This document shows, piece after piece, positions 54,588-57,163 of a DNA stretch of 64,000 bases. The stretch lies in assembly GCA_014706295.1 (NCBI GenBank), contig JACSVZ010000015.1, positions 58,277,535 to 58,341,534 on the forward strand, written 5' to 3'. Positions within the stretch are counted from its first letter, which is position 1, and every line of letters begins with the position of its first letter. The notes beneath the pieces were generated by a model. That model was not told the DNA's origin, searched no databases, and saw only the letters and a program-made list of their open reading frames with translations. The position numbers and the translations under genes are program-made. The DNA is from Lycocorax pyrrhopterus obiensis (lineage: Eukaryota; Chordata; Aves; Passeriformes; Paradisaeidae).

Positions 54588-54841
54588 TGTATTTGAACCC
54601 TGACAGTGTGCCCCAACCAAACCACCCTTAGTTATTCTTATCAGAGCCCTCAGCAATTCATCAAGTAATGCGTTCCACGTGTACAGGAGTTGAGCACGTG
54701 GACAAGACAGAGGGACCAATCAAGTAATAGGTTCCACTTGTACGGCAGCTGTAAAAAGGATAAGTAGAGTTTTACGTAAACAATAAAGTGGCTTCTGCAA
54801 AATCACATTGATTCGTTGTTCAGAAGTCCTGAGCTCCCACA
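54588..54841 (+). repeat. 5' LTR (family 2) of the compact element
   Basis: Begins TGTATTTGAACC and ends GAGCTCCCACA. U3 contains a duplicated enhancer-like unit: ATCAAGTAATGCGTTCCACG at 54660 and ATCAAGTAATAGGTTCCACT at 54719, each about 33 bp and offset by 59 bp. The TATA position reads GATAAG here (54759-54764) but TATAAG in the 3' LTR, so this promoter has probably been weakened by a T-to-G change. The polyadenylation signal AATAAA is at 54782-54787, leaving about 54 bp of R/U5 after it. Confidence 0.9.
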
Positions 54842-54844
54842 TGC

Positions 54845-54862
54845 TGGTGCCACTGACGTGAT
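54845..54862 (+). promoter_or_regulatory. Primer-binding site, tRNA-Trp-like
   Basis: TGGTGCCACTGACGTGAT lies three bases after the 5' LTR end. It matches the 18-nt tRNA-Trp primer-binding site known from avian alpharetroviruses at 15 of 18 positions by my comparison. Position and length are as expected for minus-strand primer annealing. The three mismatches could be decay or a different tRNA isoacceptor. Confidence 0.7.
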
Positions 54863-54967
54863 AAACGTTGTGATAATGAAGCAGACCAGTCCCTTTGGAT
54901 TCTGAAGGGGGTTCTGTGGAGTGAAAAGGCGGGAGGCCCTGGTCAGAGCGGTGGGGGGAGTCGGAGG

Positions 54968-55153
54968 ATGGCTCCATCGGAGTCCGGGGGCAGAAGAAAT
55001 CTCCTGGGAAAAGAGCTCCGGAAAACGTACACTGCAGTGGGTACACCCAAAGAGGTGAGCGACCAGGGGCTGGAGGATGGGAAAGGGACTGTCAAAAGAA
55101 GAACAGGCCACGTTCGGGGTCCTCCAGCTTATTCTCTCCGTGAGAGAAATTAG
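54968..55153 (+). other. Leader open frame (61 codons), possible gag-start remnant
   Basis: The first ATG after the primer-binding site opens a 61-codon frame rich in Arg, Gly and Lys. It has no recognised domain and could be a remnant of a gag N-terminus or only leader sequence. It contains a consensus-like splice donor, AG|GTGAGC with the cut after 55054, which fits a retroviral leader. There is no evidence that it is translated. Confidence 0.35.
55054..55060 (+). promoter_or_regulatory. Splice-donor-like site in the element leader
   Basis: AGAG|GTGAGC matches the vertebrate 5' splice-site consensus well. It sits about 190 bp after the primer-binding site, where simple retroviruses usually keep their major donor. 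A reasonable acceptor with a polypyrimidine tract (TTCTTTTCTTTTTCAAAG) ends near 55693. Confidence 0.5.
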
Positions 55154-55219
55154 ATGCCATAAGCAATGGATTAAAAGAAACTAAGAGACTTCAAAAGAAA
55201 CTAAGGGACTTAATATAAT

Positions 55220-55588
55220 ATGGACGTTAATAAGGCAAATAGAAGCAGAAAAAATAGCTGTGGCAGAGGCAGTGGCCCCTCTAGAGCCAGGCGGTCCCAC
55301 GGCTGCCTACCGCCCCTCCTGTGTGCGCTGGCTGCCCTCAGCCTGCCGCTGCTGATGGCTGCCGAGCCCCACGCCAAAAGTTGCTCCGAAGTGCGGAGGC
55401 TGTATGCCGCCAAAGGCTTAGCCAGAGTGAAGGTTAAAATGCAAATGATGAGTATCCAAAAGCAAAGCATTTGCGCAGCTTTGAAGAAGAAGAGCATAGA
55501 CAAGAAGAGTCACAGCAAGTTTCGAGAGCAACTTGGAACTTTGAAATCGATTTCCCTAGAAATTTGGATCCATCAGCATTTCCAGTGA
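55220..55588 (+). pseudogene. Captured glypican N-terminus (glypican-4-like), truncated
   Basis: A 122-codon frame. Residues 1-29 are basic and unrelated to glypicans. Residues 30-48 form a hydrophobic signal-type segment ([19 protein letters not shown]). Residues 49-66 read [19 protein letters not shown], the conserved start of mature vertebrate glypicans and closest to glypican-4 (pattern [10 protein letters not shown]..KGF). Glypicans are GPI-anchored heparan-sulfate proteoglycans that modulate Wnt, FGF and Hedgehog signalling. Similarity stops after residue 66, before the cysteine-rich globular domain, so only the signal peptide and first strand are present. The segment (55307-55417) is GC-rich, unlike its surroundings, as expected of a first coding exon. 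The native start codon is not preserved, so this ATG lies in unrelated upstream sequence. It lies inside the LTR element, sense to the LTRs, and no functional glypican can be made from it. Confidence 0.7.
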
Positions 55589-55773
55589 AACAGGAAGTCC
55601 ACAGGACTTTGCTGAAAGAGAAGACTGCAGACAAATCCACAGATATTGACTACTTTTTTCCCCTAATTAATATAATTCTTTTCTTTTTCAAAGCGTTAAG
55701 CTACTTCATTGCAAACTCAAACAAGGGACACTTTGATTTAAAAAATAAGGTGGTTCAGATCTCTGCTAATTAG
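55471..55773 (+). other. Second open frame after the glypican segment, origin unknown
   Basis: A 100-codon frame in a different phase from the glypican-like frame. Its first 65 or so residues are highly charged and look like real coding sequence (for example FEEEEHRQEESQQ and WNFEIDFPRNLDPSAFP), and the open phase extends upstream to about 55435. The last part turns hydrophobic and AT-rich (FFPLINIILFFFKALSYF) and is probably not coding. It may be part of the same captured transcript, shifted by an indel, or a fragment of another gene. I do not recognise it. Confidence 0.35.
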
Positions 55774-55817
55774 CAGCTGTCCTTAACAGATTTTGGCAAT
55801 GAATTAGATGGAAAATT

Positions 55818-55865
55818 AAAAAAAAAAAAAAAAAGGAAAAAAAAGAGAAAAAAAGGAGGAAAAAA
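55818..55865 (+). repeat. Long pure-purine tract (poly(A)-rich)
   Basis: Forty-eight consecutive purines, starting with a run of 17 A and continuing as A-rich blocks broken by GG, GAG and GGAGG. It could be the degraded poly(A) tail of a captured mRNA, which is what readthrough-type gene capture by retroviruses often leaves, or an internal polypurine tract. It is followed at 55892-55909 by C6-TA-G10, a perfect short palindrome around CCTAGG. Confidence 0.85.
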
Positions 55866-55909
55866 CCCAAATTGTGGTGGTTGGTTGGTCACCCCCCTAG
55901 GGGGGGGGG

Positions 55910-56888
55910 AATCCTGCTGCAACCAAAAATGGCACTTTTGAAACACAACATTTAAAAATATGTTATTGATAGCATTAATAGGCAATGCAGCAAATTTTCA
56001 TACAATTTTGTTAAGTTTTTTCTGCTGGTAACAAAACATTTTTTGAAAGAGTTCAGTGTAATGACCCACAGCCTTGCTAACATAAAGAAAGGTTTCTGGT
56101 GTATCAAAGGCCCTAAGGGGAAGCACCTGCTCTCCAGCTCCGCTCCACAGCACTATTTAAACCAGCCAGGTGGGCCAGGCCAGAGGATGAAGGTCTCAAG
56201 TGCTGCAGGAGCTGCTGCGGGATGAAGAGCTGCTGCACCACCTGCAGAGTTTCTCAGTTGTGTAGAGCCACCTAGCAAGAAAAAGGTACTGTTGGGAGCA
56301 TTGGGGTGAAGAGATTGTAAAAGATGAAATGTTTTGTCTTTTAGAGACTCTGCATTGCATTTAAAGATAGAGTTGATGACACGGTGGTATCTTGGAAAAA
56401 GAAAGTGAAATGTTTCTGGAGTGAGGCCCTATTTGTTTTAAAGCTTAAGCTGTGTCTGGTGGAGCAGTTGTGCTTTTTAGTCCTGCAGCGCCTCATCCCC
56501 AGCGCTGCTGAACAGTTTCTGTTCTTAAGCTGTTGAAAAAGAGGCTAAGCTGTGCCAGAGCTCTGGCATCTGTCAAAAAACCAGAGCTGAAATGCAGCAT
56601 TCTGCTTTTCCTAGCCTGTAGCCTTGAGTAAGATGTTGTGGTTTTCTCCTTTCATTTCACTCTTAATGAGCAATCCATCCCAGCATGTTCCTTTATGTAT
56701 TAAAAATATGCTTTAAATGCCTAGCACTAGTTCTAGCAGTTATCCTCAGTATGTTTGTTTTAAGATGCTTAAAACATAAATAATGAAGACAGAAAGAGTG
56801 AGTCAAATCAAGCATTAGGTATCCAAAAGAAACAAGAAGAAATAACATTTGGAAAACATAGTAGAAAAGGTTTGGCTGGTGCAAGCAG
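55910..56888. other. 3' interior of the compact LTR element, no gene recognised
   Basis: About 1 kb between the purine tract and the 3' LTR. The longest open frame is 63 codons (56693-56884, minus), with nothing recognisable. The base composition is mixed: a moderately GC-rich part at 56,100-56,260 (repeated GAGCTGCTG-like words) and AT-rich parts elsewhere. It may be 3' untranslated sequence of a captured transcript or leftover retroviral 3' sequence. Confidence 0.5.
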
Positions 56889-56900
56889 ATAAAGGGGGAA
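56889..56900 (+). promoter_or_regulatory. Candidate polypurine tract for plus-strand priming
   Basis: ATAAAGGGGGAA lies 9 bp upstream of the 3' LTR start. A G-rich purine stretch here is where retroelements start plus-strand synthesis. It is shorter than usual and not directly abutting TG, so the call is tentative. Confidence 0.45.
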
Positions 56901-56909
56901 TTATTTTAA

Positions 56910-57163
56910 TGTATTTGAACCCTGATAGTGTGCCCCAGCCAAACCACCCTTAGTTATTCTTATCAGAGCCCTCAGCAATTCATCAAGTAATGCGTTCCAC
57001 ATGTACAGGAGTTGAGCACGTGGACAAGATAGAGGGACCAATCAAGTGATAGGTTCCACTTGTACGGCAGTTGTAAGAAGTATAAGTAGAGTTTTATGTA
57101 AACAATAAAGTGGCTTCTGCGAAATCACATTGATTCGTTGTTCAGAAGTCCTGAGCTCCCGCA
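56910..57163 (+). repeat. 3' LTR (family 2) of the compact element
   Basis: Same length as the 5' LTR and colinear with it without gaps. It keeps an intact TATAAG box (57081-57086), the AATAAA signal (57104-57109) and both enhancer-like duplications. It ends GAGCTCCCGCA. Immediately downstream the octamer ATAAACGT (57164-57171) recurs; the same octamer lies just inside the 5' end of the interior (54861-54868). Confidence 0.9.

Follow-up and report, generated by a model that had tools for sequence, protein, structure and literature searches.

Acute transforming avian retroviruses (v-src type) carry a piece of a host gene. Host sequence is also taken up by long terminal repeat (LTR)-mediated retroposition, for which Tan et al. 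(Genome Res, 2016) is reportedly the source paper. The present work describes an LTR retroelement of the passerine bird Lycocorax pyrrhopterus obiensis in which a fragment of the glypican gene GPC4 stands in place of part of gag. The element lies in a stretch of 64,000 nucleotides (C1095:58277535-58341534), called the window hereafter, in which all bare positions are counted; searches were made in the genome of 1.10 Gb (1120 contigs).

Template switching, the occasional use of co-packaged host RNA and the insertion of patches at fortuitous microhomology have been described for retroviruses (PMC4997597; template switching also in PMC5086612), and LTR-mediated retroposition, which works by a like mechanism, is established (PMC5408686). 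In birds, CR1 elements are generally unable to make retrocopies and LTR-mediated retroposition has been described (PMC8232201), and the scarcity of retrocopies in birds is put down to how seldom CR1 produces them, chicken having 78 (PMC3136929). Gene capture by endogenous retroviruses (ERVs) with multiplied copies is known from crocodilians (PMC4299795). Outside its reference list, the accessible text of a paper on zebra finch LTR elements (PMC6523648) yielded no capture terms, and among the titles and abstract starts listed from the open PMC literature no such capture was found for glypicans with zebra finch ERVs, for ERV gene capture or retrocopies in birds, or for LYAR with ERVs or retrocopies.

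The GPC4 insert and the element that holds it

The element spans about 54584-57163, with two LTRs enclosing a tRNA-Trp-like primer site and a broken gag. BLAST comparison with sibling elements leaves a sole non-family stretch of at least 30 nt between the LTRs, at 55309-55405, and comparison with the native exon sets the host piece at 55309-55414. This piece matches exon 1 of GPC4, located on a contig other than that of the window (C1107:19822057-19822182), with 92% identity (E 2.1e-43); the native exon is complete, with a start codon, a coding part of 57 residues and a GT donor, and 9 substitutions separate the two over 119 aligned nt, 5 of them CpG decay. An earlier note, made from the letters of the window, had proposed capture of the first coding portion of a host glypican gene by an LTR element, and these matches bear it out. 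The glypican-like frame reaches Pfam Glypican at E 2.1e-4 (20.7 bits, below the curated cut-off of 26.4 bits) and four bird-type exon-1 proteins at E 1.5e-15 to 8.3e-12, of which three come from the songbirds Chloebia, Zosterops and Hirundo; a PDB search with this frame gave no chain at E <= 10.

That the donor gene is GPC4 is judged from the exons that follow. Eight matching blocks run from exon 1 onward over C1107:19.822-19.886 Mb, and the assignment is made because all six post-exon-1 blocks that match both proteins are closer to human GPC4 (69, 85, 74, 56, 74 and 76% identity) than to GPC1 (40, 52, 47, 32, 43 and 72%), the comparison being with what we take to be the human glypican sequences. 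GPC6 was compared over part of the protein only (52% in exon 2, 92% over 25 residues). Glypican-1, the UniRef name of the Chloebia exon protein, was considered as donor and rejected, as the post-exon-1 exons point to GPC4. The features of the element, all on the forward (+) strand, are as follows.

54584..54841, +, 5' LTR (95.7% identity to the 3' LTR over 254 bp; first 4 nt of the family LTR not recognisable)
54845..54862, +, primer-binding-site-like stretch of tRNA-Trp type (3 mismatches in 18 positions to TGGTGACCCCGACGTGAT, as carried by siblings L030 and L035)
55077..55308, +, broken 5' gag (in translation, the Met-Gly start of a matrix-like protein, after which the frame breaks)
55298..55308, +, 5' switch point (11 nt, CGCGGCTGCCT, common to native GPC4 exon 1 and the gag of siblings; the window has one altered base)
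55309..55414, +, GPC4 exon 1 insert in sense orientation, codons about 8-43 (106 nt in place of 228-259 nt of gag)
55415..55429, +, 3' switch point (GGCTT then AGCCAGAGYG, where gag resembles GPC4, the latter having an additional C)
55430..55773, +, family sequence after the patch (about 82-90% identity to siblings)
55774..56890, +, 3' family sequence (common to siblings; no coding sign in two frames tested)
56891..56899, +, polypurine tract (from the sequence; same position in L048)
56902..57163, +, 3' LTR (by repeat comparison; 5' end placed from siblings)

Where the window holds the patch, siblings carry a proline-rich gag segment, which measures 228-259 nt in 22 of 34 sibling rows (21 distinct elements) with both borders recognised by pattern. 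The insert is thus a replacement. The gag query of the genome gave 53 candidates, the best 40 of which were scored and 30 fetched, and one sibling alignment was read from 18 rows only (17 plus-strand loci and L006). A shared deletion may mark a subgroup: L065, L066, L067, L070, L071, L072 and the LYAR elements described below except L029 are missing some 140 nt or more of the proline-rich gag segment, at roughly one position.

Both junctions of the GPC4 patch sit on similarity rarer than chance. At the 5' end, no exact match of at least 11 nt other than CGCGGCTGCCT appears when exon 1 is compared with the gag stretch of each of three siblings: 12 of 63,713 or 65,403 position pairs reach this match length, all of them at CGCGGCTGCCT, and the junction similarity is equalled by 40-146 of 20,000 random pairs (four siblings). 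The right border reads GGCTT then AGCCAGAGCG, with a single C bulge on the GPC4 side, and here 12-35 of 20,000 random pairs do as well (four siblings). Scoring covered both GPC4 ends and the 5' ends of the LYAR and attractin-like captures.

A genome search with window positions 55276-55424 returned two candidates, both scored, namely the window and the native exon, and no other element with the insert; propagation of the GPC4 piece, which the earlier note had supposed, is contradicted by this count. The insert thus occurs in one element, not in the multiple insertions expected of a transducing ERV, and its frame is not open and translatable as in a transducing retrovirus. Signs of a processed pseudogene of the LINE type (a 3' poly-A tail, and a separate target-site duplication bordering the host piece) are absent, family sequence resuming directly after the insert. 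No function of the patch is evident, since it lacks a start codon, does not follow the gag frame and shifts frame at the 3' join, and as part of the best joint explanation we hold it very probably to be a passenger. A link to viral attachment through heparan sulfate had also been suggested; nothing connects the insert, of about 35 captured residues, to either. A frame of 122 aa from an ATG at 55220 is open and joins out-of-frame gag to the patch; we see no reason to think it used.

The paired LTRs, the primer-binding-like site and the glypican-like frame of the earlier note are real, and its description of the element fails in one respect: viral coding remains are present in the window, as the Gag start and the family sequence after the patch, and a longer relative in the LTR family (L017) carries reverse-transcriptase sequence. 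The Gag start at 55077 reads MGKGLSKEEQATFGVLQLILSVREIRCHKQWIKRN, with a stop directly after, and a splice-donor-like AGGTGAGC, recognised by its letters, lies near 55052. Leader and gag (54900-55300) show 81-89% identity to the other 39 matches listed. The segment 55430-55773 is probably what remains of downstream gag; the frame 55438-55773 has no Pfam match and one homologue without a name (P0005). A host origin of this frame was rejected, as it is common to siblings and has neither a Pfam family nor a named homologue. The frames 55956-56225 and 56117-56275 match no Pfam family above cut-off, and Rfam and tRNA scans of the window gave no result of use.

The direct repeats 54585-54841 and 56907-57163 are 96% identical, and the LTR pair 54588-54841 and 56910-57163 differs at 11 of 254 aligned bases (10 transitions, 1 transversion). 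Bird sequences change at 2 to 3.3 substitutions per billion years per site, at which rate the LTR divergence would correspond, very roughly, to 7-11 million years. Sibling LTRs start 8 nt further out (TGTTGTAA preceding TGTATTTG), and the first 4 of these 8 outer nt have no match in the 5' LTR copy of the window. The primer-site form TGGTGACCCCGACGTGAT is, as we take it, the complement of the tRNA-Trp 3' end; this site in the window and RVT_1 in L017 are the features that touch an assignment to alpharetrovirus-like ERVs. The same joint explanation makes it very likely that the family is one of tRNA-Trp-primed endogenous LTR retroelements of a bird, with a non-autonomous copy in the window. Genome queries with the LTR and the leader gave 227 and 167 candidates respectively, the best 40 of each being scored. 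The 5' flank of the element (54400-54579) resembles, by the look of its sequence, the end of another LTR.

Host sequence in sibling elements

Screening of the fetched siblings for non-family pieces, which misses those under 25-30 nt or common to at least three loci, revealed two further host captures, LYAR and an attractin-like gene. Among the 40 best leader matches, 39 were examined past the leader (C316 left out, L073 covered for 381 nt only, L069 cut by a gap) and 5 carry host sequence, namely the window with GPC4 and the LYAR elements on C1095, C1085, C1091 and C1096; 2 of the 30 gag-selected loci, L017 and L029, do so as well, these counts representing no rate, as the two samples overlap and are non-random and the query came from the window itself. 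A LYAR query yielded the fifth copy of that gene (C1119).

The LYAR capture is best seen in L029 (C1091), which holds 866 nt of the gene (zf-LYAR E 7.8e-15; PDB LYAR chain E 5.1e-32). Native LYAR lies at C1106:13244733-13252737, where nine matched pieces span 8 kb and the resolvable boundaries show GT and AG; because L029 has an internal loss, these are probably eight exons. The copy in L029 has no introns, so that the donor of the LYAR sequence is a spliced mRNA. A genome search gave four more intronless copies (C1119, C1095, C1085, C1096). The five elements lie on five contigs, and in each the LYAR sequence follows family leader or gag and precedes family 3' sequence, and at least one flank has an LTR. 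Their 5' junction is the same in all five and is equalled in similarity by 2 of 20,000 random pairs (compared with one sibling, the breakpoint being set by eye); the 3' junction is visible in four, C1085 being without that part. All LYAR copies present share a base differing from the host gene in 11 of 842 columns, and in 17 more columns two or more copies, not all, differ from it. The shared 5' junction and changed bases are most simply read as one capture that multiplied. Capture with propagation, as the earlier note had it, thus holds in this family for LYAR and not for GPC4.

Each of the five LYAR copies has frame changes, stops or large losses. The shared branch gives no clear sign of selection, its 11 changes being 6 nonsynonymous, 4 synonymous and 1 nominal stop against an expected ratio of about 72:24:5 by a crude site-by-site classing; the nominal stop is a stop in only one of the five copies. 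The LTR flanks of L029, GGAGGG and GCAGGG, match at 5 of 6 positions and are likely a 6-bp target-site duplication with one change. The LTR pairs of two other LYAR copies differ at 19/228 and 22/297 positions, rough figures because these LTRs are internally duplicated. Nine of the 11 shared changes are G>A and none C>T (L029, L054, L055, L056, L057), an excess that may reflect cytidine-deaminase editing of the DNA in the course of reverse transcription; this reading is tempered by G being commoner than C in the LYAR gene (232 vs 129) and by the unpolarised direction of change.

The attractin-like capture occurs in L017 (C1119), the relative with RVT_1. About 316 nt of exon 1 of an attractin-family gene (L017 2040-2355) lie between gag and reverse-transcriptase sequence and include sequence upstream of the start codon; the native exon (C1106:610961-611276) is 91% identical to the copy. 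Pfam and PDB matches are EGF-like only, and the name attractin is our presumption from a protein motif. At the left junction 8 nt are common to gag, no better than chance (2264 of 20,000 random pairs); a 10-nt match between attractin and gag sequence lies away from the junction and was not used.

Other non-family pieces were noticed in the siblings. About 79 nt of the attractin-like exon occur in a non-family context at L051 1501-1579 and L052 1509-1587 (C1119:16.97 and 16.74 Mb), on opposite strands and about 118 kb either side of L017. L014 has an AT-rich insert of 546 nt (698-1243), part of it also in L051 and L052, which is probably another repeat, and L068 a 427-nt insert in gag (159-585) that starts near ATGCC, ends near GGCAT and is perhaps a nested solo LTR. 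Further inserts are found in L012 (3080-3219), in L031 and L069 beyond N gaps, and at the end of L066 (354 nt).

Origin of the GPC4 patch

We consider it very probable that reverse transcriptase switched from element RNA to GPC4 mRNA and back, leaving a passenger patch in an element that integrated a single time and then decayed. During the reverse transcription that made the element, the enzyme would have paused in gag; the growing minus strand would have shifted onto co-packaged GPC4 mRNA, pairing with it at GGCTT/AGCCAGAG, and, after some 106 nt of exon 1 had been copied, would have returned to element RNA at CGCGGCTGCCT. The product would be a sense-oriented GPC4 patch in place of about 255 nt of gag, as observed, and the chimera would have integrated once and decayed in place. 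On this proposal the donor was presumably RNA, the two jumps would have run in the direction given, and the capture may have fallen in the last round of replication. The sense orientation, the similarity at the junctions, and the spliced LYAR donor and attractin-like capture in the family support template switching, and the 9 changes in the insert and the 11 between the LTRs are decay of the kind found in old repeats.

Several points weigh against this account. The patch lies within one exon, so that intron loss cannot prove an RNA donor for the window copy, and with one copy only, a later event at the DNA level could also account for it. The attractin-like 5' junction is at chance level, and outside CpG sites the insert has diverged (4 of about 93 nt, changes on the host side included) by nominally more than half the LTR divergence. 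The integration of the window copy is itself not cleanly documented, with no target-site duplication around the element (flanks CAGTAA and ATAAAC compared) and a damaged 5' LTR edge. Host mRNA is, moreover, a small part of the RNA in retroviral particles (PMC4997597), and capture should thus be rare; no specific cellular mRNA is reported as enriched (PMC5086612).

Microhomology at both ends, the one copy found and the lack of an intron that could decide the donor would also fit a patch made at the DNA level, in which a break in the integrated provirus was repaired by copying the GPC4 piece at two microhomologies, through template switching at a fork or gene conversion. We regard this as improbable: the donor exon belongs to a different contig, the insert looks old, as do the LTRs, and two further captures in the LTR family, one of them from spliced mRNA, make switching at the RNA level the economical common cause. 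Much less probable still is read-through transduction, the classical route proposed for retroviral oncogene capture (PMC4997597), by which an earlier provirus beside or inside GPC4 would have given a packaged read-through RNA with the host piece spliced or recombined in. Family sequence resumes right after the 106 nt at a similar point, with no downstream GPC4 sequence present, and both junctions lie on similarity; nor does any part of the family (LTR, leader or internal) match C1107 across the 70 kb that start with exon 1, although upstream coverage was limited to 1.5 kb and an old provirus may have disappeared. The reading that the native glypican locus lies in the window with LTRs inserted on both sides, an objection that the earlier note had itself raised, or that the match is to a chance signal peptide, has no supporting point and is refuted by the native gene and its exon 1 match on C1107; it keeps next to no probability.

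Comparison with known systems

The proposed template switching from element RNA to host mRNA places the GPC4 patch close to LTR-mediated retroposition, which has been reported in chicken and likewise leaves host mRNA sequence, often partial, between LTRs by template switching at microsimilarities (PMC5408686, PMC8232201). Host sequence lies here between two related LTRs, and microsimilarity is found at both GPC4 junctions and at the 5' end of LYAR; intron removal is seen in the LYAR copies of the same family, the GPC4 patch being confined to one exon. The described cases differ from the present one, in which a very short piece sits within gag, the sequences of both parents are known, and different genes occur in other family members. 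Patch-repair insertions in nonhomologous retroviral recombination also consist of short host sequence at fortuitous microhomology, the works cited on them dealing, by their titles, with viruses and vectors (PMC4997597), whereas this is a germline copy in a bird.

Among ERVs, KIT-ligand (CrocERV29) and nectin3 (CrocERV31) of crocodilians are likewise host mRNAs captured by an ERV, nectin3 being present in several insertions as LYAR is here; KIT-ligand, however, is reported to keep conserved frames under purifying selection (PMC4299795), whereas only a fragment of GPC4 is present and all five LYAR copies are disrupted. With retroviruses of the v-src type the element shares the piece of host gene in an avian retroviral setting; it differs in showing no sign of an expressed functional host protein and no tumour gene, with one germline copy found.

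A broader reading, which we put forward tentatively as more doubtful than probable, is that this ERV family is a habitual maker of retrocopies that repeatedly stitches host mRNAs (GPC4, attractin-like, LYAR) into gag, with spliced LYAR as a stable cargo multiplied to at least five places on five contigs. If true, some bird retrocopies would be owed to such families, CR1 making few in birds. Three independent captures in one LTR family, one of them spliced and multiplied, offer a concrete system for asking whether ERVs make bird retrocopies, and the GPC4 copy lets donor, acceptor and the two switch points be read directly from sequence. The mechanism is of a known kind, that of LTR-mediated retroposition; its recurrence in one bird family, with one capture amplified, is the interesting part.

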